Origin: an uncultured bacterium
GTDB taxonomy: Bacteria; Cyanobacteriota; Vampirovibrionia; Gastranaerophilales; Gastranaerophilaceae
Assembly: GCA_902802935.1 (NCBI GenBank)
Contig: CADCNZ010000111.1
Coordinates: 1 to 41,079 of the forward strand
Direction: 5' to 3'
Length of the DNA: 41,079 nt
Below the pieces are notes generated by a model. It was not told the origin of the DNA. It worked only from the letters and a program-made list of their open reading frames with translations, and searched no databases. Position numbers and translations under genes: made by a program. Of the stretch, positions 10,507 through 28,623 are shown piece after piece (within the stretch, counting starts at the first letter, position 1; every line of letters starts with the position of its first letter).

Positions 10507-10516
10507 CTCTTTCTTT

Positions 10517-11363: not shown

Positions 11364-11422
11364 CTCTCTTTTTCTTTTGTTTTGTCGAATTAGCAAATCC
11401 GACCTGCTTTTTCTTTCTTCTT

Positions 11423-11456
11423 CCTCTCCTTTAGGAGAGGGTTTGGTGAGGTGTTA
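11423..11456 (+). repeat. REP-like palindromic element, copy 2
   Basis: CCTCTCC, TTTA, GGAGAGG form a perfect 7-bp hairpin (11423-11440), followed by the tail GTTTGGTGAGGTGTTAAC. It lies between the genes for subunits A and B. Confidence 0.8.
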
Positions 11457-11480
11457 ACCTCATAACGTTTTCCCCGTCTA

Positions 11481-11502
11481 TCCCTCCCTCTATAGGGAGG
11501 GA
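11481..11502. repeat. Second hairpin type between the pilin genes
   Basis: TCCCTCCC (11481-11488) pairs with GGGAGGGA (11495-11502) around TCTATA. It lacks the GGTGAGGTG tail of the REP family. It stands 24 bases after the end of subunit A on the minus strand and may stabilise or attenuate the operon mRNA. Confidence 0.65.
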
Positions 11503-11526
11503 ATTAAGGGAAATTTAATTACTCAA

Positions 11527-12192: not shown

Positions 12193-12280
12193 AGGGTAAA
12201 CCTTCCTTTCTTGATTTGTGTGTTTCACTACATTTCACCTTTTTGTATTTTACTTTTCGTTGTTACCTTTCTTTTTCTTA

Positions 12281-12322
12281 CTCCCTCGCCTTTGAGGAGG
12301 GGGACGGGGTGAGGTGATTAAC
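12281..12322 (+). repeat. REP-like palindromic element, copy 3
   Basis: CTCCCTCGCC, TTT, GAGGAGGG form an imperfect stem, followed by the family tail ACGGGGTGAGGTGATTAAC. It begins four bases after the chaperone stop (minus strand), so it sits in the chaperone to subunit A gap. Confidence 0.78.
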
Positions 12323-12325
12323 TTT

Positions 12326-13135
12326 TTATAATGTTATCGGCACCTCTTGTTTCAAATTCTGTTTTTTATCTTTTTCGTCTTTATAGTTAACAAGGACTCT
12401 TAGAGTAAGCTCGCCCTTTTCTTTAATTTTGTCTGCCGGAATCTTATCTTTGAATATATAATAGTTTTCACCGCCTATGACCTTTGCCGGAATGTTATAT
12501 TCATATACAAGTTTTTTATCTTTTACTATTTGAGCTTTTACAAAACAATTTATTTTGCTGTTACCCGTAGATTTAACTTTCATTTCTACATATTGCCCAT
12601 CTTTTTCTTTTACGGTTTTAAGGTATTCAACTTCACCATGCTTTGTAAATTTTCCTTTTGTTACATAGATAGGTATTCCCATTCTTGTTTTTACAATTAG
12701 CTGAGCACCTATTCCCGGCATTCCTGTATCCAAATTATATTCTTTTGCATTAACATCCTCTAAATACAGAACTGCTCTTGATTCACCATCAGGTAAAGAA
12801 TTCAAGTTTGCTATATTGATTCTTAGTTTTTGTACTTTTCCCGGTTGAACCGTAAATTCCGAAGGTACAAACCTTATTTTTTTAGCTATATTATGAGGAT
12901 CATCAGATTTTTCATGGTGAACCATTTTTGACTGTTCGCTTATTGTAAAATATCCTGAGTAAGCTTTGAAACGGATTGTCTGTTTTGTGTCACCTCTTAC
13001 TTCTATAGCAGTTGTTACATAATTTGATTTAATTTTATTTGCATTAATGTCAATCTTATTAGGTGCAACCGCAATAGATGCGTATGCTTGGGTAGTTATT
13101 AATAATGTTATAAGTAATCCTAAAATCTTTTTCAT
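12326..13135 (-). CDS. PapD-like periplasmic fimbrial chaperone
   Basis: This 269-aa protein has a signal peptide (cleavage after QAYA, residue 19) and the two-Ig layout of pilus chaperones. Residues 88-106 read as the F1-G1 region (VPSEFTVQPGKVQKLRI), followed by LPDGESRAVLYLED at 114-127, the equivalent of the family's conserved LP-x-E-S-x-F/Y-x-L motif. It would bind secreted subunits in the periplasm, complete their fold and deliver them to the usher. The ATG at 13135 is preferred to one ten codons earlier because GAGGAAG precedes it. It then begins one base after the upstream gene's stop. Family assignment is good; the subtype (archaic or alternative) is not certain. Confidence 0.85.
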   Translation of the reverse strand: MKKILGLLITLLITTQAYASIAVAPNKIDINANKIKSNYVTTAIEVRGDTKQTIRFKAYSGYFTISEQSKMVHHEKSDDPHNIAKKIRFVPSEFTVQPGKVQKLRINIANLNSLPDGESRAVLYLEDVNAKEYNLDTGMPGIGAQLIVKTRMGIPIYVTKGKFTKHGEVEYLKTVKEKDGQYVEMKVKSTGNSKINCFVKAQIVKDKKLVYEYNIPAKVIGGENYYIFKDKIPADKIKEKGELTLRVLVNYKDEKDKKQNLKQEVPITL

Positions 13136-13136
13136 A

Positions 13137-14003
13137 CTATCTTCCTCTATCCTCCGTGATAACAAAATCCAAATTATTTACATAGCTTCCTGCTTTCAAG
13201 ACCTTTCCGCCTTTTCCTTCAACAGAGCATTCTATTGAAACGTACTCATTATTAGCAGGAGCTTTTCCTCTTGCAATTATGATTTCTTTGCCCGGTTCTA
13301 TAAGAACTCTTTCCTGCAATCTTTGTTGAACATTTGATGATGCTGCAACCGTTCTTATATAATAATTTCCTGCTGTTTCTCCAAAATCAGTTGTATCAAG
13401 AGTTACTATCCAATCACTGTTTGAATTAATGTAAAGCATCGGATTAGTATCCGTTTTAATCTTCCCTTTTGAAAATGCATCTTCTGTACCAACACTTATC
13501 TGTGCTGTCTCTCCGTGGAACGATATGTCCTGTGTTTTTGGAATAATGAGCTGCAAATTGAATGTTGAAGTCCCGTTTACGGTTGATGTATCAGGATCAA
13601 CCGTCTGAATTTCAATATTCAAGTTGTAAACTCCGGCAGGTATCATTCCGTAGTCACGAACTTTTAAAACTACGTTCTTTGCAATTCCACCCATAATTGC
13701 GCGTCTGAAGATTGTTGAGTACTCATTGTATCTCATAAATATATCTTCTCTGTTGTTGTTGAGATATACATACTGCAATGGTATTCTAACTTCACCATCT
13801 GTACGAACAAGCGCGTCATCTAAAGGCTTAACAGCGATATCATATTCTCCCCCGTCATTACTGTTAATCAGTAAATTGCGTTCAACAAGATTAGGACGTA
13901 CAATAGTTTCTCCGTTATAGTCCATAATTACCAGCCCTGCGTCTGCTTTTAAGCACACCAGTGAGGTAAATAAAATAATTGTTGTGATAAACGCTTTTTT
14001 CAT
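13137..14003 (-). CDS. Secreted fimbrial adhesin or initiating subunit candidate
   Basis: This 288-aa exported protein (signal peptide to about residue 22, ADA/GLV) is the first gene of the fimbrial operon. The mature part is beta-rich and apparently two-domain. Strands such as IPAGVYNLNIEIQT and NLQLIIPKTQDISF occur about halfway, and the C-terminus ends KAGSYVNNLDFVITED, the kind of strand seen in chaperone-usher subunits. It is larger than subunits A and B. With its place ahead of the chaperone, this suggests a tip adhesin or a two-domain subunit, but no family is recognised with confidence. Its stop codon is one base from the chaperone start and includes that gene's ribosome site. Confidence 0.55.
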   Translation of the reverse strand: MKKAFITTIILFTSLVCLKADAGLVIMDYNGETIVRPNLVERNLLINSNDGGEYDIAVKPLDDALVRTDGEVRIPLQYVYLNNNREDIFMRYNEYSTIFRRAIMGGIAKNVVLKVRDYGMIPAGVYNLNIEIQTVDPDTSTVNGTSTFNLQLIIPKTQDISFHGETAQISVGTEDAFSKGKIKTDTNPMLYINSNSDWIVTLDTTDFGETAGNYYIRTVAASSNVQQRLQERVLIEPGKEIIIARGKAPANNEYVSIECSVEGKGGKVLKAGSYVNNLDFVITEDRGR

Positions 14004-14954: not shown

Positions 14955-15018
14955 ATAATTAAAAAATGTAGATCAGATTTAATAACAAAACATAATAAAT
15001 AAGTGGAAAAATGAAGAG

Positions 15019-17334
15019 TTGAAAGTTCTAAAAGAGAAAAATCTAAAAACAATATTTGCTATTACCGCAGTTGTTGCATTCGCCGCCTGCGGAATTGCTT
15101 TTGCTGATGCAGATTTTACTTTTTATGAAATAAATCCTAACAAACAAATCAGACTTGTTAACCCCATCTATTTGGATTCCTCAAAAGTTTCTCACCCATC
15201 TTTAAAAGTCACAAATCCTTCTGAAAACGGACTTTCATCGCTAAGCACAAAATCCTCAAAAACCCAGCAGGTCAAGTTTAACGATCCTTATTCACCTATC
15301 ACAGAAACTGCACCATTTAGAATGCCTACGCCTTCTGAATATAACGCCGGAAAACAAGATGTCCGGCAAGCAGAAAATTCTATTATTCCATCTTCCAACG
15401 TAAACGCATTTGCTCCGCCGATTGAAGAAGTACAGCAAGAAATTCAAGACGAAACTCTTCCTCCTATGCCGACTTTTGTACAAATTCCTCAAGATGAAAC
15501 CCCAAAAGTCGAACAAAACAATGAATCATCTTATTTCGCTTCAGTTCAGGAAGAAGAGATTAATTACGACGGAAAAACCGTTTCAGGTATTACAATTAAA
15601 GGGCTAAATCAAGTAAGTGAAGATGCTGTTCTAAACAGGCTTTCTATAAGGAACGGTTCTAAATATAACGCGGAAAAGCTTCAGGAAGATTTGCAAAACA
15701 TATACAACATGGGGTATTTTTCCGATAATATGTCCATAACCCCGACACTTAATGACAATGACACAGTAAGCTTAGAATACACTCTACAGGAAAATATTAT
15801 CGTATCAGATGTTTCAATTAAAGGTAACACCGTATTTACAACGCACGAGCTTTTGCCAATTGTGAAACCCCTAAAAGGTCAGCCGCAAAACCTCAACAAC
15901 ATAAATGATGCCATCGAAAGGCTTAACAAATATTATGCAGACAAAGGTTACATCTTGGCAAGTGTGAAGAACGTAGATGACACAGAAGATGGTGCGCTTA
16001 TTTTTGAGATTTCTGAAGGTATTATTGATCAAATAGTATTTGAAGGGAACCATAAAACCAAGAATTACGTTATTGAGCGTAACATATTGACTCAACCCGG
16101 CACAATATATAACGAAGAATACATAAAAAAAGATATTGCAAAACTCTATTCAACCCAAATATTCAAAGAAGTCGACCGAAAAATTGAACCCAGCCCAAAC
16201 AAAGACGGTGAATACATTGTTACGGTAAAAGTTACCGAAGACTCGTCAAACAGCTTATCTATCGGAGGCGGTATCGATAACGCCCTTGGTGCATTTGGTT
16301 CAATAGGTTACAACGAGAAAAATTTCCTTGGAAAAGGTCAAAAATTCGGCATTTCAGGTCTGATAGGTTCCGGAGTATTGCTTAGTGACGCTTCAATTAA
16401 AAATCGTATGAACTACAACCTTGAAATGAACTGGATGGAACCACACTTTATGAACGAAAATACTTCCCTTGCCGCTAAACTATTCTACAGAGACTTGGGA
16501 AGCTATCAAATCCCGCTTGCAATAGAACGCAGATTCGGAATAAGTACGAGACTTGAACATAAAATTAAAGGTAACGAACATCTGACAACAAACTTTGGAA
16601 TAGGTTTCGAACATATACATCTTAGCGAAGGTGACAAAGACAAAATTGCAAATATGTACAAACGTAATAATATTAACTTTGCCAAAAGAAAGGAGCAATT
16701 GAGAGGGGGCTCATTCTTGAATATATCTCCTGGAGTTAAATACAGCACTCTCGACAATGAAGATATGCCAAGAGAAGGTTTAATTGCTAAAGCTAATTTT
16801 GTAGAAGCTCTTGGAATTGATGATATACACCACTCAAACGGACGTCTGATTGGCGGAATAACAAAATACATACCCGTTTTCAAAAAGTCTACCTTATCTA
16901 TAGGTGCAAAGGGCGGTGTTAAAGTTCATGGAAAAGAAATGCCGGAGGTTATGGCATTCAGACTCGGCGGTCCTTACTCTGTAAGAGGCTTCAAAATGAA
17001 TGGTGTCGGTACAGGTGAGCATTTTATTATGGGTAGCGCAGAATTACAAACACCTATACCATTCTTTGACCGATTCAAATACGATATTCTTAAGAACATG
17101 AGATTTGCCTTCTTTGTTGATGCCGGCAAAGTATTTGACCCGACAGTTTCAAGTAAATTATATGACAGACCGCTTAGTGCTATATCCGGAGGTATCGGTC
17201 TAAGAATTTATATACCTAATATCGGTCCGATATCTATTGACTACGGTATACCGATTACAAATCCTGGACACTATGGCAAGAGAAGCGGACAATTCACGTT
17301 TGGTACAAGCGGTTATTACGACAGTTATTACTAA
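15019..17334 (+). CDS. bamA: Omp85-family outer-membrane assembly protein BamA
   Basis: This 771-aa protein has a signal peptide (cleavage near residue 29), then a long Pro/Ser/Gln-rich region to about 180. Three POTRA domains follow (about 187-258, 260-336 and 337-407), then a 16-strand-type barrel (412-771). The hallmark VRGF lies in GGPYSVRGF near residue 657, and the C-terminal strand is aromatic. It inserts beta-barrel proteins into the outer membrane. E. coli BamA has five POTRAs; three POTRAs plus a proline-rich N-terminal extension is the cyanobacterial layout. The start is TTG at 15019, the only in-frame candidate that keeps the signal peptide. skp follows 30 bases downstream, as in many bacteria. 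Confidence 0.92.
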   Translation: MKVLKEKNLKTIFAITAVVAFAACGIAFADADFTFYEINPNKQIRLVNPIYLDSSKVSHPSLKVTNPSENGLSSLSTKSSKTQQVKFNDPYSPITETAPFRMPTPSEYNAGKQDVRQAENSIIPSSNVNAFAPPIEEVQQEIQDETLPPMPTFVQIPQDETPKVEQNNESSYFASVQEEEINYDGKTVSGITIKGLNQVSEDAVLNRLSIRNGSKYNAEKLQEDLQNIYNMGYFSDNMSITPTLNDNDTVSLEYTLQENIIVSDVSIKGNTVFTTHELLPIVKPLKGQPQNLNNINDAIERLNKYYADKGYILASVKNVDDTEDGALIFEISEGIIDQIVFEGNHKTKNYVIERNILTQPGTIYNEEYIKKDIAKLYSTQIFKEVDRKIEPSPNKDGEYIVTVKVTEDSSNSLSIGGGIDNALGAFGSIGYNEKNFLGKGQKFGISGLIGSGVLLSDASIKNRMNYNLEMNWMEPHFMNENTSLAAKLFYRDLGSYQIPLAIERRFGISTRLEHKIKGNEHLTTNFGIGFEHIHLSEGDKDKIANMYKRNNINFAKRKEQLRGGSFLNISPGVKYSTLDNEDMPREGLIAKANFVEALGIDDIHHSNGRLIGGITKYIPVFKKSTLSIGAKGGVKVHGKEMPEVMAFRLGGPYSVRGFKMNGVGTGEHFIMGSAELQTPIPFFDRFKYDILKNMRFAFFVDAGKVFDPTVSSKLYDRPLSAISGGIGLRIYIPNIGPISIDYGIPITNPGHYGKRSGQFTFGTSGYYDSYY

Positions 17335-17364
17335 AATTAAGAATTAAAAAAGGAGAATGGTAAA

Positions 17365-17820
17365 TTGAAAATTATTATTAAATCTGTATTGTCTTTATTT
17401 GCTATATTCATAATGCTTCCCTCTTTTGCAGGCGGGGTAGGCTATATTGACTATCAAAAAGTCTTTGAAAACTATCAATATGCAAAAACTGCTATGCGAG
17501 AAATTCAAACAAAAGAAACTGAAATCAAAAAATATCTTGATGCTAAAGAAGCTGAATTTGATAAACTTGAAACGCCTATTCAGAAAAAGAAATTTCAAGC
17601 AACTGTTCAAGCAGAAATGAAAACCAAAGAAGCTGCATTTAATGATTTTAGGGAAAAACGGGAAGAAGCTGTTTATCAAAGAATACACGCTGTCTCGGAA
17701 AAAATTCGTCTTGAAAAAGGTCTTGATGCCATTCTTGATGCAAGAAGTGTTTTTTCCGGAGGAGTTGATATCACAGATACTCTTATAAAAACTCTCAATA
17801 GCGGAAGTGCAGCAAAATAA
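17365..17820 (+). CDS. skp: OmpH/Skp-like periplasmic chaperone
   Basis: The 151-aa protein has a signal peptide (to about residue 22), then GVGYIDYQKVFENY, the characteristic OmpH/Skp opening (VGYVDxQKVF). A Lys/Glu-rich helical arm of about 80 residues follows, and a C-terminal segment that would complete the trimeric body. Skp holds unfolded outer-membrane proteins for delivery to BamA, encoded directly upstream. The start is TTG with AGGAG nine bases before it; the ATG in between is closed by a stop after two codons. Length fits the family (about 150-170 aa). Confidence 0.88.
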   Translation: MKIIIKSVLSLFAIFIMLPSFAGGVGYIDYQKVFENYQYAKTAMREIQTKETEIKKYLDAKEAEFDKLETPIQKKKFQATVQAEMKTKEAAFNDFREKREEAVYQRIHAVSEKIRLEKGLDAILDARSVFSGGVDITDTLIKTLNSGSAAK

Positions 17821-17913
17821 AATTCATTAAATATTGTTAAAATTTGAGACTAAATATTTTCCTTTTGAACAATTTTAGATGTATAATCGTATAGAGATTA
17901 TAAGGATTTTATT

Positions 17914-18195
17914 ATGGGTATTGGAATTTCTGTACTGGTTGTTTTTATAGTATTGGCTGTTATTTTGAAAAATATTATAAGTTTTGGAATTAAGCTTACT
18001 GCGTTTGTTATACTTGCAGCAGCACTGGCTGTAACTATTTGGGTTTGTTCGGCACAACCTGATATGCATAAACCTTTTTCTATAAACACAATCGAATATC
18101 TTTTCAAGATAAATAAAGACGGCTCGTTGACTACTACAAAACAAATTACACAGACAGTAACTAAAAAAGATAGCGAGGGAAACAATCATGACTAA
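17914..18195 (+). CDS. Small inner-membrane protein, 93 aa
   Basis: Two hydrophobic segments (about 4-21 and 26-46) are followed by a hydrophilic tail with polar Thr/Lys-rich residues, so it is probably an inner-membrane protein. No family is recognised. AAGGA precedes the ATG by seven bases, and TATAAT stands at 17882-17887. It overlaps the start of the next gene by eight bases, so the two are likely translated together. It begins the run of envelope genes that extends to 23632. Confidence 0.6.
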   Translation: MGIGISVLVVFIVLAVILKNIISFGIKLTAFVILAAALAVTIWVCSAQPDMHKPFSINTIEYLFKINKDGSLTTTKQITQTVTKKDSEGNNHD

Positions 18196-19225
18196 TTTTA
18201 AAAGACTAATCGCATTCTTGCTATTATTATTTTTCTCGTCTGCAAATTCCGCTTTTGCATTCAGTGAGCTTTATTACCTTAAAAACGTGCAGACATCAGA
18301 AATTCAACCGATTGTTGATAATTACTATTCTACATACGGATTTAATATAATTAAAAGAAATCCGTATTACGGCGTAGCACAAACCGGTAATGACTACGCT
18401 GTAGTTGTTTTACAGCAAAGCGGCAACAATATGTTTTATTACTACCAATCAGAAAATAATACAAAAATTAATAAAGCTATACTTAAAGAAATCAAACGAC
18501 GCGATATAATTTGTGAACAATCTTTTAACACAAATATTATTAGTATTTACGACAATATCGCAAACGAAACCGTAATGACATCAGGCGCAGTAAAACAATA
18601 TTCATTTGAAGAACCGGAATCAATATTTACACCGCCTGCTCAAACACAACAAATACAGCAGCAAAATACACTAAGAGGAGGCGTCGTTCAGCTTGCTGCA
18701 GGAACTAAACTGCAAACTTATCTGCAAAACGCTATAAATACTGCAACAGCTGTTAAAGGAGACAAAGTTATAGCGGTCTTGCAGCAGAATTTAACATATA
18801 ATGGTATAACCGTTGCACCGCAAGGAAGTATTGTAGAAGGGACCCTTTCAAAAGCAAGAAACGCGACATACGGTTCAAGGAATGGTAGAGTTGTTATCTC
18901 GTTTAACAAAATAATTACACCTGAAAATAAAGTATACAATATTTCTGCAGAAGAAATAGATTTTACTGTTTCAAACGACGGAAAGTTAAAGGAATCTATA
19001 AAAAGTGCAGCTACAAGTGCTGCCGTTGGTGCAATAGCAGGATTGTTATTTGCTCTGATAACAGATAAAAATGTTGGAAGCTCTATGGCAGTTGGTGCAG
19101 GTGTTGGCGCAGGAACATCTGCGGTTGTTTCTACTGCAGAACGAGGTGTTGATGCAGAGATTCCGTCCTTTACGGAATTAGAATTGACATTAACTAAACC
19201 TCTCAGCATATCAGTCAGCTACTAA
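18188..19225 (+). CDS. Exported protein with VirB10/TrbI-like C-terminal region
   Basis: The 345-aa protein has a signal peptide (to about 25, SAFA/FSE), a unique N-terminal domain and a Gln/Pro-rich linker (about 147-160). Its C-terminal region resembles the VirB10/TrbI beta-barrel domain of type IV secretion: LAAGTKLQTYL, then GDKVIAVLQQNL, then PQGSIVEGTLSKA, then GRVVISFNKIITPE. A Gly/Ala-rich hydrophobic hairpin (SAAVGAIAGLLFAL … SMAVGAGVGAGTSAVV, about 277-317) resembles the antenna-like membrane helices of that fold. No other T4SS genes are nearby, so a role in conjugation is unlikely. It may form a periplasmic or outer-membrane ring in an unknown envelope structure. The resemblance is by motif only. 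Confidence 0.5.
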   Translation: MTNFKRLIAFLLLLFFSSANSAFAFSELYYLKNVQTSEIQPIVDNYYSTYGFNIIKRNPYYGVAQTGNDYAVVVLQQSGNNMFYYYQSENNTKINKAILKEIKRRDIICEQSFNTNIISIYDNIANETVMTSGAVKQYSFEEPESIFTPPAQTQQIQQQNTLRGGVVQLAAGTKLQTYLQNAINTATAVKGDKVIAVLQQNLTYNGITVAPQGSIVEGTLSKARNATYGSRNGRVVISFNKIITPENKVYNISAEEIDFTVSNDGKLKESIKSAATSAAVGAIAGLLFALITDKNVGSSMAVGAGVGAGTSAVVSTAERGVDAEIPSFTELELTLTKPLSISVSY

Positions 19226-19263
19226 CTTTCAAGAATAAACATAAATACCAAAAAGGAAACATT

Positions 19264-19932
19264 ATGAATAAGAGATTAATTACAGTTGGATTATTAATTT
19301 TAAGCATTGCTATTATCGGCAAACTGCTTTTCTTTGCAGCAAAAAATATCAAAGTTGACGAATTTCATAAGGCTGCAATAATATTTGCGGTAGATTCTTC
19401 TGCTTCAAACCAAAAGAATTTGCCTGACCAAATCAAATACTTAAAATCTCTTTGTGCAATACTTGACCCTGAGGATGAAATTAAAATTCTCAAAGTTTCC
19501 CAAGATTCATATCTAATATATGAAGGCTCTCCAGGAAATTCAAAAGGAATTACAAAAGCTGTAGAAGCATTTACGCAATATAATTCAAAAGACTACGGAA
19601 CCGCATACGGATTAGCTATTAAAAAAGCTTTTGAACATTGTCTTACGATGAAAAAGGAAGGGTATGTTCCTGCTGTTGTCATAATTGGAGACCTCGAAAA
19701 CGAAGGCGCAATTGAAAAACAAATTAATTGGGATACTTTGCCTGAAAATGTTAAAAAGGTTCAAGAATACATACCTGAAATTTCTATGATGTTCGTATAT
19801 GCACATCCTGAAAAACTTGATATGGTAAAAACAAAGCTTAACCCTGTTTTGGGTGAAAAGAAGTTAATCGTTGCAAACGAAACAAACGTAGACAAAGCGA
19901 ACAGAAGATTTCTTGAGGCAATCGGCAGATAG
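19264..19932 (+). CDS. Membrane-anchored von Willebrand factor A-like protein
   Basis: The 222-aa protein has one N-terminal membrane helix (about 6-26) followed by a vWA-type fold. FAVDSSAS at 41-48 gives the MIDAS motif DxSxS (Asp44, Ser46, Ser48), and VVIIGDLENEG about 100 residues later supplies the strand with the third metal-binding aspartate. The domain probably faces the periplasm. vWA domains bind a metal and dock partner proteins. Its neighbours suggest it is part of a multiprotein envelope complex. The two middle MIDAS residues are not certain. AAGGA precedes the ATG. Confidence 0.68.
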   Translation: MNKRLITVGLLILSIAIIGKLLFFAAKNIKVDEFHKAAIIFAVDSSASNQKNLPDQIKYLKSLCAILDPEDEIKILKVSQDSYLIYEGSPGNSKGITKAVEAFTQYNSKDYGTAYGLAIKKAFEHCLTMKKEGYVPAVVIIGDLENEGAIEKQINWDTLPENVKKVQEYIPEISMMFVYAHPEKLDMVKTKLNPVLGEKKLIVANETNVDKANRRFLEAIGR

Positions 19933-19963
19933 GAGTAAAGGGGGTAAAGGGGTAAAGGGCAAA
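19932..19963 (+). repeat. Short tandem G-run repeat
   Basis: Three to four units of an 8-9 base repeat (GGAGTAAA, GGGGGTAAA, GGGGTAAA, GGGC) begin in the stop codon of the vWA gene. The G-runs spaced by TAAA could nearly form a quadruplex on the plus strand. Confidence 0.55.
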
Positions 19964-20058
19964 AAAATAACTTCCGGATATTACTTTATCCACCCTTTCT
20001 TTCTACGGTGATAAGATTTAATTAAAAGTCAAAATAAATAATTTAAAAAGGAGCAATA

Positions 20059-21654
20059 ATGGCATTTACAATAGTTACAAAATACGGAGAAAAAACTTTT
20101 GCAGACAAAGAGCTCGTGAATATAAGTTCTAAAGCAGGTGCTGATGTTCAAATGAGTATTGGATTTGATTTTCTTTTAACAGTTCAATATGACATTAGGA
20201 CAAATAAATGCGTTCTTTTGAATCAATTTAACAACCAGAGATTTTTATTCAAAGGAAGACCAATCCCTGCAAGGCTTGATATTGAAAAAGTTTGTAAAGT
20301 TATGGTAGACGGAAGTGATGATTTTATAACAATAAAAGTTATTGGAGAATCTTCAACCATAAACATTTCGGAAGAAAATATTTCTGAAGCAGAAATGCAG
20401 GCCATTTATGGCAATGAAGTAAATGCTGCTGCTAAAATTATGGTAGAAAAACGTAAAGCCGAAATCGAAAATGCACGTGTCGGAATAATAAAAGAAGTCG
20501 GCGCGAGAATAAACGATTTAAAACGTAAAATTTCTATGAATTCTAAAGGCGGGATAATGCTCCATATAGCAATGTTTGTTGCGTCTTTTATCTGTGCTTT
20601 CGGTGTATCAAACTACCTGACAGGACTTCCGCTGGAAGAAGCAGGAAGCGTAATTCAAATGCCTACAAATATGAAACTTATTTTCATATACGCACTCATA
20701 ATATATGGAGTTGGCTTGATTCTTAAACAAGGTATATTCTTATTTTTACAGAACAAGCTGGGAGAAGGTAACGTTACAACTCAACTTGCCGAAAAATTTA
20801 TGATTGTTCTTTCTCTTGTGTTTTATGCGGCAATATATTTAATTAACGTTCTCTATTACATTTCACCAAAAACATTCCCTGTATTTGCTGTTTTGATATC
20901 ACTTTTCTTTGTAGGAACAACCGCAACTCTTGCTCTTGCTTGCGGTTATTACAAAAACGCAAGTGTAGAGACAAAGCAAGAACTCGATGAAATTGAATAC
21001 AGAGAAGATTTTGAACACGTTATTAAAGAATATCAACAATGGATTGAAAGATATGCAAATACTTTGAGCAAAACGAAGATTAATAATATAAAAGACAAGC
21101 TATTCGGACTTCAAATTAAATCTTTGGGAGAAATGCTATTAGGATTAATTACAGCTCCTTTCTTGGCTTATGGCGTTTCTAATACTCTTGCAAGCTGCTT
21201 CCCTGAAGCTGCAGGGTGGGTGAGAATTTCAGGATTAAGATTAAGCCCTGTATTTTTGGCACTTGCTACTTTCTTAATCATTTTTGCTTTCTTTAACTTT
21301 GTTAACGGATTTTTATGCAGCAAAAAAATTCAAGCTTCAAACGTACTGAAGCAAGATGGTTTCAGTAATTATTTGCAGCATGGGGTAGAAATATACGGAC
21401 TTGAAGGTATTAAAAAACTTGACCGTGAAATGCGACGTTCTTTCATAATTGGTATTGCTATAATAGGTATTGAGTTTTCAATGAACGTATCTTACTTTAT
21501 GCAAGAAATCGGCGGCGATTTGAGCGGTATGCTTTTGAGTGCTGTTGCAGCACTTGTTCCTACGGCACTGTTAATTGCTGAAACATATATGTTAAGTCAG
21601 ACAAAATTTGAAACATTTGCCTGCGAAGAAACAGTCGCCAAAATCGGAGGCTAG
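20059..21654 (+). CDS. Polytopic membrane protein with FHA-like N-terminus and internal duplication
   Basis: This 531-aa protein starts with a beta-rich soluble domain (1-100) resembling an FHA-like fold: LVNISSKAGADVQMS, LLNQ…FLFKGRPI, VDGSDDFITIKV. A charged helix follows (105-160), then eight predicted membrane segments. The membrane part is an internal duplication: 180-196 AFGVSNYLTGLPLEEAG and 370-386 AYGVSNTLASCFPEAAG align, and four helices follow each unit start (about 165-300 and 357-515). A cytoplasmic coiled segment (300-355) joins the units. No family is recognised. It may be a scaffold or channel in the 17914-23632 gene group. GGAG precedes the ATG. Confidence 0.6.
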   Translation: MAFTIVTKYGEKTFADKELVNISSKAGADVQMSIGFDFLLTVQYDIRTNKCVLLNQFNNQRFLFKGRPIPARLDIEKVCKVMVDGSDDFITIKVIGESSTINISEENISEAEMQAIYGNEVNAAAKIMVEKRKAEIENARVGIIKEVGARINDLKRKISMNSKGGIMLHIAMFVASFICAFGVSNYLTGLPLEEAGSVIQMPTNMKLIFIYALIIYGVGLILKQGIFLFLQNKLGEGNVTTQLAEKFMIVLSLVFYAAIYLINVLYYISPKTFPVFAVLISLFFVGTTATLALACGYYKNASVETKQELDEIEYREDFEHVIKEYQQWIERYANTLSKTKINNIKDKLFGLQIKSLGEMLLGLITAPFLAYGVSNTLASCFPEAAGWVRISGLRLSPVFLALATFLIIFAFFNFVNGFLCSKKIQASNVLKQDGFSNYLQHGVEIYGLEGIKKLDREMRRSFIIGIAIIGIEFSMNVSYFMQEIGGDLSGMLLSAVAALVPTALLIAETYMLSQTKFETFACEETVAKIGG

Positions 21655-21710
21655 GGTAAAAGACTCAACGCCGCAACTTCTTAAAAACTTAATTTTATAA
21701 TCGATAAATA

Positions 21711-22517
21711 ATGAAACTAATTTTACAAATTCTTTTAATACTTATTGTTGTTTCTACTGCGGTAATTTGCACCGCAAAACCTAAACTGCACAAAACAGTC
21801 ATGGTTTATGATTCCGCGTATACTATTGTTAAAGAAAATGACATAAAAGTTGAAACAGAAACAATTCCTGTAATGGAGATGCCTGTAAAACAGGAGCAAA
21901 GAGTCCAAAAAGTTGAACAAGTTATTCAAAAACCGGCAAAAACATCAAAACAAATACAACAAACCAAAGTTTCAACTCAAACCACTCCTCAAAAAACCAA
22001 AGTAAATACTGTTAAGGTTCAAACTCCTAAAGCAGAAACTGTCGTAAAGCAAACACAATCTTCAAAACCACAAACTCAAACAACTAAGGTTCAAACACAA
22101 AAAGTTGAAATTCCGATTGCAAAACAAACCGTCAAACAGGAGCAGCCGAAAGTTTTAACCCAGCAAGAAGAAACTATAGCTTGGAATATTTGGCGCTCAA
22201 ATCTGCAAAACCAAATTATGCAAGATGTAAAACTACCGCTGCTTCCAAATGGTATAATTTTCAGATTTTCATTTACTGTTGATAAATTCGGAAAAATTTC
22301 AAATCTTCAAACTTGGTCTGATGTTTCTTCTTACACACCTTATGCTATCCAATATATTGCACCTGTCATAAGAAGTTATCAGGGACGTTCGATACTTAAT
22401 TTTCCAACAGGCACAGCTCGAACAATAACCGACGTTAAAGGCGGCTGGAAAATTTCCGATAATGCAAGATACAGCAGCCCTCAGGATTATAATGATATAG
22501 AAAAGGTTGTAAAATAA
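21711..22517 (+). CDS. TonB-like energy-transducer protein
   Basis: The 268-aa protein has an N-terminal membrane anchor (about 3-20), a long Gln/Lys/Thr/Val-rich linker (about 50-150) able to span the periplasm, and a compact C-terminal domain (about 160-255). In that domain IWRSNLQNQIMQDVKLP and FSFTVDKFGKISNLQTW recall the TonB/TolA C-terminal fold (helix, then strands with a vD.dGkI.n turn). TonB and TolA couple inner-membrane proton-motive force to outer-membrane work, but no ExbBD or TolQR partner is encoded in this window. Its stop overlaps the next start (TAATG), so the two transducer-like genes are coupled. No strong ribosome site precedes its ATG. Confidence 0.62.
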   Translation: MKLILQILLILIVVSTAVICTAKPKLHKTVMVYDSAYTIVKENDIKVETETIPVMEMPVKQEQRVQKVEQVIQKPAKTSKQIQQTKVSTQTTPQKTKVNTVKVQTPKAETVVKQTQSSKPQTQTTKVQTQKVEIPIAKQTVKQEQPKVLTQQEETIAWNIWRSNLQNQIMQDVKLPLLPNGIIFRFSFTVDKFGKISNLQTWSDVSSYTPYAIQYIAPVIRSYQGRSILNFPTGTARTITDVKGGWKISDNARYSSPQDYNDIEKVVK

Positions 22518-23632
22518 TGTATAAATGTAGTGAATGCGGATGTGAATATGATATTAAACCGGAATTTTGTGATTGCGGAAATGATACTTTTGAAAAAATC
22601 GAAACAACTGACAAAATACCCGTTCAAGAGACACAATCTGATATAAAAACTATAAAACCTGTGAAACTTGAGGTAAAACATCAAGAAAAATTTCCGAATA
22701 TTCAAAAAAAATCCTTTACTGAACAATACCCCGGTTTTTCAAGATTTGTAAGCTCTATTGATCCGATTTCCGGCAGCATTTTTGGTATCTGCATATTATT
22801 ATCTTTTATAGTTATTTTCTTTTTGTGGAATGTTGATGAAAATAATATCACCTCGCCCCAGCCCTCTCCTCAAGGCAAGGGAGCGATTTCCCATAATATT
22901 CCTTCTATAGATAAAATATGGAATAGCACACCGCCTGCACCTCTTAAAGAAGAAACAAAACAAGAAGATAACATTAAACCTGCACCAATAGTTCAACAAG
23001 TTGTTAAGCAAATTGTTCCGGCGCAAAAACCTAAAATTAATACAACAAAAAAACAGACAAAACAAGTAACTAAAACTGTAACTAAACCAAGTGCAAAAAA
23101 AACACAGGTTAATAATTCTTCTGCAGCATACAAACAGAAAACAAATATATCTGCTCCTAAACAAATAACACAACAAAAAACAACAATTACAAACCCTGCT
23201 CAAAAACAAACTCAAAATAATACAACTGTTCAAACTCAACCAACGCAGACAAAACCTCAAACCGGTATAACAACTGTAACATTACAGAAAAATCCGGCAG
23301 TATCAACGATTGAACAAGTAAATAATACTGCTCTAAAACAAGAACTTAACAATTATAAAGTATCTCTAAGAAATACTATAGGAAGGAAAATTGATTTTAC
23401 AAAAGTTATCGGTGACGGAAACTGCACAGTTGCTTTTAAGATTGATTCAAGCGGAAAATTGATAAATCGTTCGTTTACAAAACAATCATCAAATATAACC
23501 CTAAATGATGCGGTTTATGCTGCTGTTATGTCAACCCCCAGATATAACGCGCCGCCTGCACTATACAAAAATGAAACTTTAAATCTGAATATAAAATTCT
23601 ATAACGGAAATTTTGAGATTACACTAAAATAA
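22517..23632 (+). CDS. Zinc-ribbon, single-helix, TolA/TonB-like protein
   Basis: The 371-aa protein combines an N-terminal zinc-ribbon-like knuckle (Cys4, 7, 9, 18, 20), a cytoplasmic segment and one membrane helix (about 84-104). A long Gln/Thr/Lys/Pro-rich linker (about 140-270) follows. The C-terminal TolA/TonB-like domain (about 280-371) includes VAFKIDSSGKLINRSF, the typical strand-turn-strand, and NDAVYAAVMSTPRYNAPP. The linker is interrupted just after the helix by a translated REP-like element (residues about 112-123, TSPQPSPQGKGA). The zinc ribbon on the cytoplasmic side is unusual for a TonB-type protein and may bind a partner. It is co-translated with the preceding TonB-like gene. 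Confidence 0.6.
   Translation: MYKCSECGCEYDIKPEFCDCGNDTFEKIETTDKIPVQETQSDIKTIKPVKLEVKHQEKFPNIQKKSFTEQYPGFSRFVSSIDPISGSIFGICILLSFIVIFFLWNVDENNITSPQPSPQGKGAISHNIPSIDKIWNSTPPAPLKEETKQEDNIKPAPIVQQVVKQIVPAQKPKINTTKKQTKQVTKTVTKPSAKKTQVNNSSAAYKQKTNISAPKQITQQKTTITNPAQKQTQNNTTVQTQPTQTKPQTGITTVTLQKNPAVSTIEQVNNTALKQELNNYKVSLRNTIGRKIDFTKVIGDGNCTVAFKIDSSGKLINRSFTKQSSNITLNDAVYAAVMSTPRYNAPPALYKNETLNLNIKFYNGNFEITLK
22848..22886 (-). repeat. REP-like element inside a coding sequence, copy 4
   Basis: Read on the minus strand, this has the same order as copies 1-3: CTCCC, TTG, then CCTTGAGGAGAGGG and CTGGGGCGAGGTGA. It lies in frame in the zinc-ribbon TolA-like gene, encoding part of its periplasmic linker. 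Confidence 0.75.
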
Positions 23633-23688
23633 TTTATTATTTAACGCAGATAGCCAATATACCACTAAATATATAAATGACCAATTTG

Positions 23689-23710
23689 CGTTTTGTAAAG
23701 TTTTGTTAAG
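23689..23710 (-). promoter_or_regulatory. Degenerate HLR1-like direct repeat
   Basis: On the minus strand TTAACAAAACTTTACA differs from HLR1 at one position. On the plus strand it is two 10-base repeats (TTTTGTAAAG, TTTTGTTAAG). The 22-base block recurs at 35510-35531 with one mismatch, again upstream of a lineage-type gene. Confidence 0.45.
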
Positions 23711-23789
23711 ACAAACATGCTGAAATAGGCAATTTTACATGGTTTCAGAACTTTATATATTTAAGAGTACAAAAGCGAGGATAAAAATT

Positions 23790-25844
23790 ATGTTCGGATT
23801 GCCAAGCGGATGGCTATTTTCAGGAATGAACTACGATATGAGCAGCGACTCATTATCAAGTTCTTTAAATATCCAATATAATTTAGGACTGGCGAAAGCT
23901 GATCTTTTCCCAGGATTATGGTCTTACCCTGCACTTGATTCTATGTCTTGTGTAACTTATCCTAATATGCTTGATAATAATAACATATTATTGAATCCTA
24001 TGCTTGCTGTACAGCAATGGAACCAACAAAGACAGAACGGCGGCGGAATTTTTAATTTCGGAGGCGGTTCAAACGGTTATGGTAATTTTGGTTTCGGAGA
24101 CAGCTTTAATAATACAGGATTCTTCGGACAAAACGGCGGTATTGATGGCAGCAATAACAACGGCAATATTTTTGGCGGTGTTTTTGGCGGTAACAATACC
24201 GGTGTAAATAATGGCGGCAATACAGGACTTTCTAACGAACAAAAAGAATTAAACAAACTTAAAAACGTATTTGAAAGTTTGAAAAAACAAGGCTTAAGCG
24301 AAGAAGTTATAAACAAATATAATGAAGCATTAAAAAATAAAACAAATGCCGAAAAAGTTAGTGCTTTAAAAGATTTGTTAAAAGAAGTTCTTGAAGATGA
24401 AAGCAATGCAGAAAATATTAAAAATGCAATTTATTCAGACAAAGATATTAAAGAAAAACTTATCAACTTAGGTTATAAATTCCCTGATAATGATATTTTC
24501 AAGGCAGAAAATGACAATGATAAAACAATTAAAAAAGATATGAAAGATTTAAAATCTGCTATAGACAGCGATAACACTAATAATTTGCAATCGCTTGCAG
24601 GTAAAATACAAAAAAATCAGGAACAAATTCTAAGATATGTATCAGCATGGAACAAATCTAATATTAAAGATAATTCTTGCAAGTCAATGATTGAAGTTGT
24701 TGCAGAAAAAGGAGCTTCCAAATCCGCAACGGAGCAAGAACCATACAAAGGATTTGTCAAAATAGTTTCTGATGCTTTAATTTCAAAAGCAAATAAATAT
24801 GATGATTCTTATGCTGAAATAGCTAAAAAGGTTGAAACTTTGAGCAAAGCTCTTGAACCATTCAACAAAGCTAATGCAAAAGTAACAAAATCCCAATTTA
24901 ACGATGCAGCAAATGCTTTCCAAGAATTATATGCACTTGTAAGAATAACCGAAGCACAAGAACTTGATAAAGAAATCAATGAAAAATTCGGGTTCTTAAA
25001 CGAATATAAAGAAGGAATCGTTGGCTCTGGTATTATAACAAAATCTGTAAAAGCAGAGCTCTCACAAGAAAAAGTAGATATCCCGACAAATATTGACGAT
25101 GTTGACGGCAAAGAAGATGGCAAAAAAACAATAGAAGAACAGGCTAAGGAATTAGGTGCTGAATTTAAATACACTGCAAATGGTGTAAAAGTCTACAGTA
25201 ACTCAAAGACCGGTAAATGGTACGTTGTTGATAATGACGAACTCAAATATGTTGGTGATGGTAAATACGTAAACAAAGACGGAAATATATGTTCTAAAAA
25301 AACTTCAGAAACAGAACAATCTGTAACTGATTTCTTGCAAAATGACAAAACTGATAATAAAAAGCAAAAAGATAATACATCAAAATTAACAGATGCTGAA
25401 AAAGACGCTGAGCAAAAAGCACAAGATGTATATGATAAATTGTGGGGTCATACTAGCGTTACTGAAGGAGAAGAAGTCCAACAAATTATTGAAGATTTGG
25501 AAACAGATGATATTTACAGATTCATGAATAAATATATTGAGCTTGATGGTTCAGGTTCAAAAAATAGAAACGGCGGACTTTGTGACCAAATAGATAATGA
25601 AGGTGACTGGTCATTATTAAAAACTCATTTCAAAAAAGATGTTGCTGCAGATGTGATATTAACATTGGTTACCAAAGTTCTTAAATGGGCTGAAGACAAT
25701 GGTTTGACTGATGATTTGGGTTACAAGAGACTCAGCAAATATAAAGAAGATGATGAAACTGGTGAAATTCTCAGAAAAAATGCAGAAAATGTTGATTATT
25801 ACATATACAGATTGATAGATAAATATAAAAACATTAAAGATTAA
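23790..25844 (+). CDS. Large hypothetical protein with Gly/Asn-rich segment
   Basis: The 684-aa protein is of no family I recognise. The ATG at 23790 (MFGLPSGWLF) is chosen because GAGGA lies about eight bases upstream; the frame opens 17 codons earlier without a ribosome site. Residues 1-75 are Ser/Asn/Leu-rich, and 78-146 form a Gly/Asn/Phe low-complexity block (for example GGVFGGNNTGVNNGG). The rest is charged, Lys/Asp/Glu-rich and mainly helical, with no signal peptide or membrane helix. It might be surface-associated or exported by a non-Sec route, but nothing proves that. It is monocistronic: an HLR1-like box upstream and an intrinsic terminator 70 bases downstream. Confidence 0.65.
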   Translation: MFGLPSGWLFSGMNYDMSSDSLSSSLNIQYNLGLAKADLFPGLWSYPALDSMSCVTYPNMLDNNNILLNPMLAVQQWNQQRQNGGGIFNFGGGSNGYGNFGFGDSFNNTGFFGQNGGIDGSNNNGNIFGGVFGGNNTGVNNGGNTGLSNEQKELNKLKNVFESLKKQGLSEEVINKYNEALKNKTNAEKVSALKDLLKEVLEDESNAENIKNAIYSDKDIKEKLINLGYKFPDNDIFKAENDNDKTIKKDMKDLKSAIDSDNTNNLQSLAGKIQKNQEQILRYVSAWNKSNIKDNSCKSMIEVVAEKGASKSATEQEPYKGFVKIVSDALISKANKYDDSYAEIAKKVETLSKALEPFNKANAKVTKSQFNDAANAFQELYALVRITEAQELDKEINEKFGFLNEYKEGIVGSGIITKSVKAELSQEKVDIPTNIDDVDGKEDGKKTIEEQAKELGAEFKYTANGVKVYSNSKTGKWYVVDNDELKYVGDGKYVNKDGNICSKKTSETEQSVTDFLQNDKTDNKKQKDNTSKLTDAEKDAEQKAQDVYDKLWGHTSVTEGEEVQQIIEDLETDDIYRFMNKYIELDGSGSKNRNGGLCDQIDNEGDWSLLKTHFKKDVAADVILTLVTKVLKWAEDNGLTDDLGYKRLSKYKEDDETGEILRKNAENVDYYIYRLIDKYKNIKD

Positions 25845-25916
25845 ACCCAATAATGTAATAAAAAAGTAAACTTGAAAATATAACATATAGATGTAAGATT
25901 GGTATTAAACAAAGAC

Positions 25917-25940
25917 AGCCGCAGAAACCTGCGGCTTTTT
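25917..25940 (+). terminator. Intrinsic terminator
   Basis: AGCCGCAG, an AAAC loop and CTGCGGCT run directly into TTTT. This strong GC-rich stem ends the gene at 23790-25844. Confidence 0.92.
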
Positions 25941-25985
25941 ATTAACTCAATTAACACTATTTTACAATATATTTTCGATATACTA

Positions 25986-26013
25986 TTGAGATAATTTCAT
26001 TGTATGATATAAT
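25986..26013 (+). promoter_or_regulatory. Promoter of the ribbon-helix-helix gene
   Basis: TTGAGA (25986-25991), a 16-base spacer and TATAAT (26008-26013), with a TG one base upstream of the -10 (extended -10). The predicted leader is about 13 bases and contains the GGAGGG ribosome site. Confidence 0.7.
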
Positions 26014-26032
26014 ATTATTGTACGGAGGGAAT

Positions 26033-26221
26033 ATGGCAAGAGTATTAATTTCAATGTCTAACGACTTTCTTAACAGAGTAGATTCTTTAGCAACTTCTGA
26101 ACAAAGAACCAGAAGTGAACTAATTAGAGAAGCTCTGCGTGTATATATAAAACGTAACAGAATTTCTAACAATCTGAAGGCAGAAGAAAACGCTGCTCTT
26201 CTTTCTGAACTATTAGGTTAG
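26033..26221 (+). CDS. Ribbon-helix-helix (CopG/MetJ-type) regulator
   Basis: This 62-aa protein starts with the beta strand MARVLISMSNDFLNRVD, followed by two helices with SEQRTRSELIREALRVYIKRN, the ribbon-helix-helix DNA-binding pattern. It should act as a dimer, with the strand entering the major groove. The ATG at 26033 has GGAGGG immediately upstream; an earlier ATG at 26000 would overlap the promoter. CopG-like proteins are often antitoxins, but no partner toxin gene is adjacent, and the gene has its own promoter and a terminator-like hairpin. It is likely a standalone or autoregulated transcription factor. Confidence 0.8.
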   Translation: MARVLISMSNDFLNRVDSLATSEQRTRSELIREALRVYIKRNRISNNLKAEENAALLSELLG

Positions 26222-26246
26222 AAATATAATATTTTTGCAAAATAAA

Positions 26247-26276
26247 AACTGACCTTTTGGTCAGTTATAAGTTTTT
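26247..26276 (+). terminator. Probable terminator of the ribbon-helix-helix gene
   Basis: AACTGACC, a TTTT loop and GGTCAGTT form an 8-bp stem, followed after ATAAG by TTTTT. The T-run is slightly displaced, so efficiency is uncertain. Confidence 0.65.
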
Positions 26277-26367
26277 CTCAAATAATTTTGGGAGGAGATT
26301 TGGGGATAGTTGATACATGGCATGCTACAACAAATTTTTAAGTCATGATACATGCCCTTCAAAAAAA

Positions 26368-26383
26368 TTTACAAAAATTTACA
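26368..26383 (+). promoter_or_regulatory. HLR1-type operator upstream of the TPR gene
   Basis: TTTACAAAAATTTACA followed by AT matches the RpaB consensus exactly. TTGACA follows at 26386-26391, but no good -10 stands at the right distance. The rest of 26277-26496 shows no gene. A GGGAGGAGAT run at 26290-26299 resembles a ribosome site but has no suitable start. Confidence 0.55.
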
Positions 26384-26496
26384 ATTTGACATCTTATTTA
26401 TGCTTATTCGCCTTATTTTTTCACCTTTTATTAATCACTTAACCACTGCCTTACAAACTTATTTCTTTTCCGTCAACGTTGTAGTAATATATTGAT

Positions 26497-28623
26497 ATGA
26501 ATAAAAAAATATTAGGGACAGTTTGTTGTTTAGCCGTTTGCACAAGCTTGCTTGGAAATCCTGCTTTTGCTGCAGGCAGCGGAGCTTTTGCCGAACACTA
26601 TAATGCTGCTCAAAATTATTTGATGCAAAACCAATTTTCTTCTGCAATTGCAGAATTTAAAAAATCTCTTCGCATAAACTATATGGATAATTCTGCAAGG
26701 ATTGGTCTTACAAATTCATATCTTGCAAGGGCTGCGTATTACGCAAATCAAGAAAAAAATTATGACAAAGCTGCAAATGATTTTAGAAGCGCCTTATTTT
26801 ATCTGAAAATGTATCCTACAAGCGAACAAGATATTCAAAATTCGATAGGAATGATATCGTCTGCAACAACAAATCTTGGACAGTGCCTAAAAGTTACTGG
26901 AGCTGACACATCAGCAGGAGCAAGATTTAAAAAAGCTGAAGAGTTGCGTGCAATAGGGGAATTTCCTGCTGCCGCTTACGAATTTTACAAAGCAAGCGAA
27001 AATGATAAATTTGCATCTAACGCAAATTCGCAAATAGCTGACTTGATGAAAATTTTAGGTAATGATAGCCGCTCAGCTCATTTTTACAAGCTCGCTCTTG
27101 AACAGAATCCGAATGACGGTGCTTTACGCATGAAATACGCGAGAACACTTGATAAAATTGGCGAATACGATACCGCCGTTAAAGCTTACAATGATGCCCT
27201 TGCAAATTCAAAAGGCGATCTGGAGATTTTATACGGTTTAGAAAGAATTTATTTAAAAAAACTTGCACAAAACCCAAGTGATGCTGAACTAAATGCAAAT
27301 ATTGGCGCAATAAAACAAGCTCAAGGCGATTTTGAATCAGCACTTAGTTATTATGGTAAAGCAGAACAGCTTAATCCCGAGAATATAACTACAAGAATTA
27401 ACGTTGGCACATTATATCAAGCAAAGAAACAATATACAAAAGCCATTCAAGCATATGATTCAGTGTTAACAATACATCCAGATAATACGGATGCAATGTT
27501 TTATAAAGCTCAGGCACTTTCAGAAATGGGTGACAAACAAAATGCTCTAAGCATATACAAAAAAGTTGCAGCAATGAACCCTTCTAACAAGGAAGTTAAA
27601 AACGCAATTATTGACATTATGAAAGATACAATGTCACCTTCTGAATATATCTCATATTTGGCTCAAAACGGAACGGCAAATGATCTATATGATTTTGGGT
27701 ATAAACTTCATAAAGAAAATAAAATAGATGAAGCCATTCAAGCTTACAAATCATCAATAGAAAAAGACAGTTCTAAAGCAGATGCTTATGTAAATATGGC
27801 TATATGCTACGCCGCACAAGATGATTATAAAAATGCATCTAACATATTAAACATAGCAAAAAATAAATTTCCGACAAATAATCTTGTACTGAAAACATTA
27901 AAAGAAGTAGAACAGGATGCCGTATCAACAAAGCTTGCATCAGCTTCCTCAAGCTATGACAACAAAGATTACAGAAAAGCTTTACAAGAGTATTTGAGCA
28001 TAAATCCTCCGACAGAGAATTCAATGCTCGGAGCAGCTGCCTCATATCAAGCTCTTGAAGATTATCAAAATGCAATTACTTATTACAAAAAAGCTGAGTC
28101 ATTAAACCCTAAAAATGCAGAGATACCGTATTATATAGGTTATTTGTATTCGGAACAGAAAGACTGGTCGAATGCGGAAACATATCTTAAGAAAGCTGTT
28201 TCTTTAAATCCTCAATCAGAAGCAAAAAGTCTACTTTCTTATGTGTCACAAAACGGAACACTTGGCATACTTAATGAAGGGATAGATTTATTTGAAAAAC
28301 AAGATTACAAAAATGCACTGCTTAAACTCAACGAAGTAATAAAGAAAGAAGCTAATAATGCTTATGCACATTACTACAGAGGAATGATTTATGACGAACA
28401 AAAACAAACAAAGCTTGCAATTGCTGACTACTTGAATGTTGTCAAAAATTCTTCTGATTTTCCTATTGTAAACTACTTGCTCGCAGTAGATTATGATACA
28501 AATTCAAACTACAAAGATGCATTCAAATACTACAAAATATTTACCGAAAAATATTCAACTGATGATGAATATCTAAAATATGCCAAATCCAGAATGGAAG
28601 AGTTGAAATCATATGCAGGCTAA
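26497..28623 (+). CDS. Exported tetratricopeptide-repeat protein
   Basis: The 708-aa protein has a signal peptide (cleavage near NPAFA/AGS, residue 25). TPR units run almost the whole length, seen in repeats such as FESALSYYGKAEQLNPENI, YTKAIQAYDSVLTIHPDNT and YQNAITYYKKAESLNPKNA. TPR arrays are protein-binding scaffolds. Sec export implies the periplasm or the cell surface, possibly organising outer-membrane or envelope complexes. The ATG lacks a clear ribosome site. An HLR1-type box lies about 115 bases upstream. Its last 11 bases overlap the dus gene, so the two are probably co-transcribed although functionally unrelated. Confidence 0.82.
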   Translation: MNKKILGTVCCLAVCTSLLGNPAFAAGSGAFAEHYNAAQNYLMQNQFSSAIAEFKKSLRINYMDNSARIGLTNSYLARAAYYANQEKNYDKAANDFRSALFYLKMYPTSEQDIQNSIGMISSATTNLGQCLKVTGADTSAGARFKKAEELRAIGEFPAAAYEFYKASENDKFASNANSQIADLMKILGNDSRSAHFYKLALEQNPNDGALRMKYARTLDKIGEYDTAVKAYNDALANSKGDLEILYGLERIYLKKLAQNPSDAELNANIGAIKQAQGDFESALSYYGKAEQLNPENITTRINVGTLYQAKKQYTKAIQAYDSVLTIHPDNTDAMFYKAQALSEMGDKQNALSIYKKVAAMNPSNKEVKNAIIDIMKDTMSPSEYISYLAQNGTANDLYDFGYKLHKENKIDEAIQAYKSSIEKDSSKADAYVNMAICYAAQDDYKNASNILNIAKNKFPTNNLVLKTLKEVEQDAVSTKLASASSSYDNKDYRKALQEYLSINPPTENSMLGAAASYQALEDYQNAITYYKKAESLNPKNAEIPYYIGYLYSEQKDWSNAETYLKKAVSLNPQSEAKSLLSYVSQNGTLGILNEGIDLFEKQDYKNALLKLNEVIKKEANNAYAHYYRGMIYDEQKQTKLAIADYLNVVKNSSDFPIVNYLLAVDYDTNSNYKDAFKYYKIFTEKYSTDDEYLKYAKSRMEELKSYAG

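Follow-up and report, generated by a model that had tools for sequence, protein, structure and literature searches.

We analysed a stretch of 41,079 nucleotides (the window: contig C111, GenBank CADCNZ010000111.1) from the 1.79-Mb genome, 91% complete, of an uncultured bacterium of the Gastranaerophilaceae, and found at 17914-23632 a cassette of six genes, here termed g1 to g6, that are inherited as one unit. Six co-oriented plus-strand open reading frames (ORFs) fill this interval, with overlaps of 8 bases between g1 and g2 and of 1 base between g5 and g6, the arrangement described in the initial annotation, which was made from the sequence alone. We tentatively read the six genes as encoding one TonB/Glt-like trans-envelope transducer that would act on a vWA binding protein by way of an outer ring resembling VirB10, a reading that we favour while holding it somewhat short of probable. 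The evidence for a single unit is good; its mechanism we infer.

Conservation and mobility of the cassette

Scattering of the genes among relatives, which would have told against the complex of the initial annotation, is not what we see: homologues of the six are collinear in all 80 named related loci (the best 80 of 335 relatives, a set in which distant relatives are under-sampled), which argues that the six ORFs are not a product of chance, and the median spacing between neighbours runs from -1 to 12 bases. The exact order g1 to g6 is found in 43 of the 80, the others being without some members, cut by a contig end or carrying a gene split into two ORFs; L180 has an additional g2-like copy on the opposite strand. 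Hosts are gut, rumen and faecal metagenome genomes where the record title tells, and the titles mostly name Gastranaerophilales, Melainabacteria, Cyanobacteria or an uncultured bacterium. Three of the 80 name an uncultured Acinetobacter and are probably mislabelled.

Used as bait, g4 was present in 40 of 60 genomes of the family, and a phylum-wide sample placed it in 89 of 244 genomes, all 89 from one family. g3 occurs in 39 of the same 60 family genomes, the sole difference being G038, which has only a 100-aa FHA-like piece of g4. A lone 100-aa copy of the g4 FHA-like part, without the membrane part or other cassette genes, was also seen at L097:8039-8338, and pieces resembling it lie in further genomes of the same genus, g38. 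Of the congeners listed, one in six carries the cassette.

The flanks vary. Across 120 loci and the window, every non-cassette neighbour family occurs in at most 14 loci, apart from an exported vWA protein, here termed V. Congener G024 has the BamA-OmpH pair that precedes the cassette in the window, followed directly by unrelated genes with the cassette absent from the site, and in congener G235 g2-g5 lie near ribosomal protein genes, without g6 and with an unmatched small ORF in the g1 position. This empty site and the copy elsewhere indicate that the cassette is mobile as a block. BamA is not adjacent to the cassette in the relatives examined, and we dismissed BamA and OmpH as cassette parts because flanking genes change between relatives.

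A VirB10-type domain in g2

In the predicted structure of g2 (mean predicted local distance difference test score, pLDDT, of 78, with much of both domains above 85), the C-terminal domain adopts a VirB10-type fold. All 13 PDB matches of the model at E<=1e-3 are chains of type IV secretion system (T4SS) outer-membrane complexes, named CagY, VirB10 or ComB10 wherever the title gives a name. A second structure comparison returned T4SS outer-membrane complex chains in rows 1-12 (best Z 13.1, 3.1 Å, 116 residues aligned), and its first unrelated row (Z 8.9) fits the N-domain, not the C-terminal domain. The VirB10-like call made initially is thus borne out by structure. The alignment behind the model took 36 relatives at even steps, with rows L121 and L145 omitted for odd ends or length. 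Elsewhere in the genome, a paralogue at L105:8562-9332 gives a profile match to g2 of 100% over 208 columns and itself matches PF03743 (Pfam TrbI) at 5.2e-8 and 32.8 bits, under the 35-bit cut-off.

A Gly-zipper hairpin, modelled with low confidence, precedes the last strands of g2, at a position equivalent to that of the VirB10 antenna. The N-terminus has a single hydrophobic core resembling a signal peptide, followed by a globular N-domain; a transmembrane (TM) anchor and periplasmic arm of the VirB10/TrbI type were not found in g2. PDB sequence searches with the profiles of g2, g3, g4, g5 and g6 gave nothing convincing, the g6 match to TonB being weak (0.13).

A shared membrane-exit module and TonB-like domains

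The second helix of g1 and the membrane exit that follows it are common to g5 (41 columns, profile match 97.1%, 4.8e-11). At this exit P-x-[MIL]-H is present in 56 of 58 g1 and 79 of 80 g5 sequences, as against 1 of 810 other TM ends of the same loci; the His is sometimes lost in more distant loci. Neither the S-x3-H motor-docking motif nor any conserved His column is found in the TM helix of g5 or g6. From these sequence patterns we infer that g1 and g5 would share a docking partner in the inner membrane that stands in for ExbB and for which g4 is the simplest candidate.

g6 carries a TonB_2 domain (9.8e-6, over the cut-off) that is found in 43 of 43 homologues, all of which also keep the four N-terminal Cys. 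It matches the TonB of the housekeeping locus described below (profile match 83% over 88 columns) and g5 (93.7% over 41 columns); the C-terminal part of g5 gave no match to the housekeeping TonB. The linkers, of 126 residues in g5 and 165 in g6, are rich in Q, T, K and P.

An ExbBD-TonB locus elsewhere in the genome

Contig C32 (L105:5614-9951) encodes ExbB, two ExbD, TonB and two VirB10-type proteins. A block of this type is present in seven of seven relatives examined (eight genomes with our own), which were chosen for having the g2 paralogue there, and its TonB has S-x3-H in seven of eight sequences, judged by eye, with the His invariant. The initial annotation's statement that no ExbBD, TolQR or T4SS gene is present holds for the 30 window proteins scanned for these families and fails for the genome, which has ExbB and ExbD on C32; the TonB-like transducers that it proposed lack the usual motor-binding motif, although the genome does encode a motor at another locus. 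At E<=1, the 91% complete genome has no match to the TonB-dependent receptor plug (PF07715) or to the VirB4 ATPase (PF03135). The presence of VirB10-type proteins in this separate ExbBD locus is a hint that TonB systems and the outer ring of type IV secretion have an older connection.

An FHA fold on an eight-helix membrane protein

The N-terminus of the g4 model matches FHA domains (Rv1747 FHA-1: Z 12.0, 2.4 Å, 93 residues aligned) and the remainder is helical with eight hydrophobic cores, in agreement with the FHA-like eight-helix protein first proposed. Its inner loops are richer in K/R than the outer loops, which fits an N-in/C-in topology. Three glutamates that lie within the membrane or close to it, E358, E472 and E508, are kept in all 39 sequences compared. 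A possible internal repeat of two four-helix halves would span 147 columns, but at 19% probability, and g4 has no TonB domain. At position 24, one of those that read phosphothreonine in FHA domains, Arg is present in 0 of 39 sequences, and no conserved His (Ser-x-x-His) is found. With these canonical residues missing, a phospho-reading form of the cytoplasmic sensor suggested in the initial annotation is doubtful, and the FHA fold is probably a structural or protein-binding domain. The structure alignment took 39 relatives at even steps, with row L191 omitted for odd ends or length; alignment A1 omits two truncated g4 copies (L090, L097), and A4-A6 and A12 are selections of the homologues found.

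Two vWA proteins

g3 combines a single TM helix with a vWA domain, as originally called. Its match to Pfam VWA_2 (1.1e-4, 23.2 bits) lies under the 27-bit cut-off, and the residues of the metal-ion-dependent adhesion site (MIDAS) are mostly kept (D44 29/30, S46 29/30, S48 27/30, T113 27/30, D143 26/30). V gave no profile match to g3. It is exported, apparently by its own signal peptide, and has a perfect MIDAS (DxSxS, Thr and Asp; 28/28 at five positions) and four Cys that are invariant in 28 of 28.

We surveyed V and gene content in 120 loci, 113 of them distinct by g4 and 90 of these with 1.2 kb on both flanks. V lies beside the cassette (within 1.5 kb) in 45 of the 90, usually convergent just after g6 and, in some loci without g3, upstream of g2. 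It adjoins 45 of the 66 loci that have both g2 and g6 and none of the 24 that lack one or the other (Fisher 9e-10, kinship ignored), and it is present in all nine loci that lack g3 and have g2, g5 and g6. Strong V matches, above a 230-bit cut set after the match table had been seen, occur in 16 of the 60 family genomes, all 16 with g4 (hypergeometric 4e-4, kinship ignored). At L082:3172-6939, four V-type exported vWA genes stand in tandem beside a g3-less cassette copy.

A proposed mechanism and its alternatives

In the mechanism that we propose, g4 would serve as a platform in the inner membrane. g1 and g5 would attach to it by the P-x-M-H exit module, which would stand in for the S-x3-H with which ordinary TonB docks on ExbB, and g6 would contribute a cytoplasmic part resembling a zinc ribbon. 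The periplasm would be bridged by the long g5 and g6 linkers, which would reach a ring formed by g2 in the outer membrane; the Gly-zipper hairpin of g2 may be the counterpart of the VirB10 antenna. Metal-dependent, MIDAS-type ligand binding at the periplasmic or outer face would come from V and g3, and force or a conformational signal would pass between the cytoplasmic FHA/zinc-ribbon side and the vWA adhesin. The energy source might be the distant ExbBD, g4 or none at all. The envelope-spanning complex of the initial annotation survives here as a genetic unit whose layout covers the inner membrane, the periplasm and probably the outer membrane; the set that it listed is incomplete without the exported V, in this genome on another contig.

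Several observations weigh against this proposal. The V of this genome lies away from the cassette, on the 3.9-kb contig C112, half of the loci (45/90) have no adjoining V, proteins that are V-like in a wider sense are found in 56 of the 60 genomes, whether or not the cassette is there, and an adhesin role for V is suggested by analogy. Of the two TonB/TolA-like transducers claimed at the outset, g6 stands, whereas the TonB fold of g5 is remote, with TonB family matches in 0 of 40 homologues. The C-terminal third of g4 is a low-confidence model (pLDDT mostly <60 over the last 170 residues), leaving a platform or motor role without structural support, and g4 compared with an ExbB profile of eight sequences (hhalign) scored 0.2%. 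Some loci are without g1, g2 or g6, so these three are not all obligatory.

It is possible, and on balance rather doubtful, that the cassette represents a separate class of machine, a "split VirB10", with TonB-like rods held on an FHA/eight-helix platform through P-x-M-H and not through ExbBD, a free VirB10-type outer ring and a MIDAS vWA adhesin; g4, with its invariant membrane glutamates, would be ion-driven or mechanosensing.

We consider it unlikely that the complex is an export channel, in which g2 would form a VirB10-like outer-membrane pore, gated by the TonB-like rods, for the secretion of V or another substrate. In T4SS channels the outer ring is made of VirB10 C-terminal domains, the g2 fold is of this type, and V is exported and tightly tied to g2-bearing loci. 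However, the cassette has no ATPase gene and the genome no VirB4 family match, V apparently has its own signal peptide, and 21 of the 66 loci with g2 and g6 have no adjoining V.

The patchy spread of the cassette, found in 40 of the 60 genomes of the family and in one of the six listed congeners, is unlike that of an essential envelope function and makes it quite unlikely that we are dealing with a Tol-type system for envelope integrity or cell constriction that tethers the outer to the inner membrane. Such a system would accommodate the TonB/TolA-like transducers and the outer-membrane-directed g2, and all eight genomes examined have a housekeeping ExbBD-TonB locus that includes g2 paralogues, yet that locus may already hold the place.

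Our tests covered inheritance and domain layout, and these would also suit a block of genes that are inherited together but make no common complex, such as two small neighbouring systems, as would the absence of g1, g2, g3 or g6 from some loci. We regard this as improbable: order and spacing are kept while flanks change, a module is common to g1 and g5, and every locus with an adjoining V has both g2 and g6. Nutrient uptake by a TonB-dependent route with unusual transducers, for which the TonB C-terminal domain of g6 speaks, is very improbable given a genome without a receptor plug domain at E<=1 and g5 and g6 without the motor-docking motif.

Features and surroundings of the cassette

Table 1. 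Coordinates of the cassette genes, their parts and the adjoining genes in the window
Feature	Position	Strand	Residues	Description
g1	17914-18195	+		93 aa; hydrophobic hairpin, then ~45-aa tail
g1 exit motif	about 18058-18069			P-x-M-H
g2	18188-19225	+		345 aa, exported; N-domain and VirB10-type C-terminal domain
g2 N-domain	18248-18586		21-133	
g2 VirB10-type C-terminal domain	18677-19222		164-345	
g2 Gly-zipper hairpin	19007-19114		274-309	
g3	19264-19932	+		vWA protein with membrane anchor and MIDAS residues
g4	20059-21654	+		FHA fold at N-terminus, coiled region, eight hydrophobic helices
g4 FHA fold	20059-20346		1-96	
g5	21711-22517	+		N-terminal membrane anchor with exit motif, Q/T/K-rich linker, remote TonB-like C-terminal domain
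g5 exit motif	21780-21791		P24-H27	
g6	22517-23632	+		four-Cys zinc-ribbon-like N-terminus, one TM helix, linker, TonB C-terminal domain
g6 four-Cys N-terminus	22526-22576			
g6 TonB C-terminal domain	23351-23599		279-361	
BamA, long paralogue	15019-17334	+		left neighbour, outside the cassette
OmpH/Skp-like chaperone	17365-17820	+		left neighbour
701-aa Gly/Asn-rich protein	23739-25844			right neighbour of the cassette

The right neighbour has neither a Pfam nor an NCBIfam match, and no RNA family was found in 15000-27000. A phage or defence origin was considered and rejected: PADLOC gave no match, and PHROGs a single weak one, to g3, of unknown function.

The long BamA is a second paralogue. 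Three of the six congeners also have a long BamA, of 752-801 aa, and five of six (all but one shown weaker) have a BamA of ~632-645 aa, these being open-frame lengths. On the minus strand at 7435-14003, a set of genes looks like a fimbrial cluster of the chaperone-usher type: it encodes a large protein that has a CarboxypepD_reg-like stretch at its C-terminus, together with four exported proteins, two of them chaperone-like and two small. Pfam gives regulatory-like and similar domains only for this set, part of which is kept close to BamA in congener G059. The gene for a CdaA-type diadenylate cyclase at 32720-33616, also on the minus strand, adjoins that for a YitT-type membrane protein.

Comparison with known systems

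To our knowledge, few trans-envelope transducers are known, and the well-studied ones of TonB type need ExbB/TolQ/MotA-like motors. The component folds of the cassette are already known; their combination was not found in the literature searched. Titles, abstract openings and passages in open-licence PMC yielded no paper describing the cassette, and where Gastranaerophilales or Melainabacteria were searched for by name, none of the papers listed had a counted mention of either.

By analogy, the nearest working model for a trans-envelope transducer of this kind is the Glt machine, which serves gliding and focal adhesion in myxobacteria and in which GltJ presumably has a zinc ribbon; the cassette would work like it and is not it. 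The Glt/Agl system (GltG, GltJ, CglB, AglRQS) likewise unites FHA, TonB-type transducers and a vWA surface adhesin in one trans-envelope apparatus, and its GltG, an FHA plus TonB protein, interacts with the motor protein AglR (PMC3169522). In contrast to GltG, the cassette has its FHA on the eight-helix g4 and not fused to TonB; it has a VirB10-type domain and lacks a TolQR motor, TPR proteins and GltA/B/K-type proteins. We rejected membership of Glt/Agl because the FHA is not on the TonB protein and the window proteins scanned include no TolQR-type motor.

With VirB10 of the T4SS, g2 shares the C-terminal fold and the helical hairpin before the last strands, but its signal-peptide-like N-terminus replaces the TM anchor and periplasm-spanning arm, whose roles would fall to g5 and g6; membership of a T4SS was rejected because the genome has no VirB4 match. 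The ExbBD-TonB and TolQRA systems resemble the cassette in the g6 C-terminal domain and in the anchor-linker-domain layout of g5 and g6, and differ from it by their S-x3-H helices and motor genes. With no S-x3-H in g5 or g6 and no plug receptor in the genome, we also rejected membership of a TonB uptake system.

In PMC12204202, vWA proteins located beside TolQ-type motors are proposed to transduce force, and the vWA adhesin CglB is cited. The inner-membrane-tethered g3, in a putative trans-envelope system, is similar, whereas the cassette has no adjacent tolQ and the g3 helix has neither the SHLS motif nor the trans-pore Asp. SjdR, a TonB-like septal protein of cyanobacteria, offers a parallel within the same wider lineage: it has a part that extends into the cytosol and a function other than transport (PMC8262864, in part); it is short, its authors report no TonB-like periplasmic domain, and the portion available mentions no linked cassette. 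The class of trans-envelope transducers would be widened by a conserved, family-restricted set of this kind, in which TonB-like rods without the motor motif have a membrane module in common with a small membrane protein and are joined by a vWA protein and an outer domain of VirB10 type. The set is also a concrete starting point for asking how the uncultured relatives of cyanobacteria in the gut may attach to surfaces or to partners.

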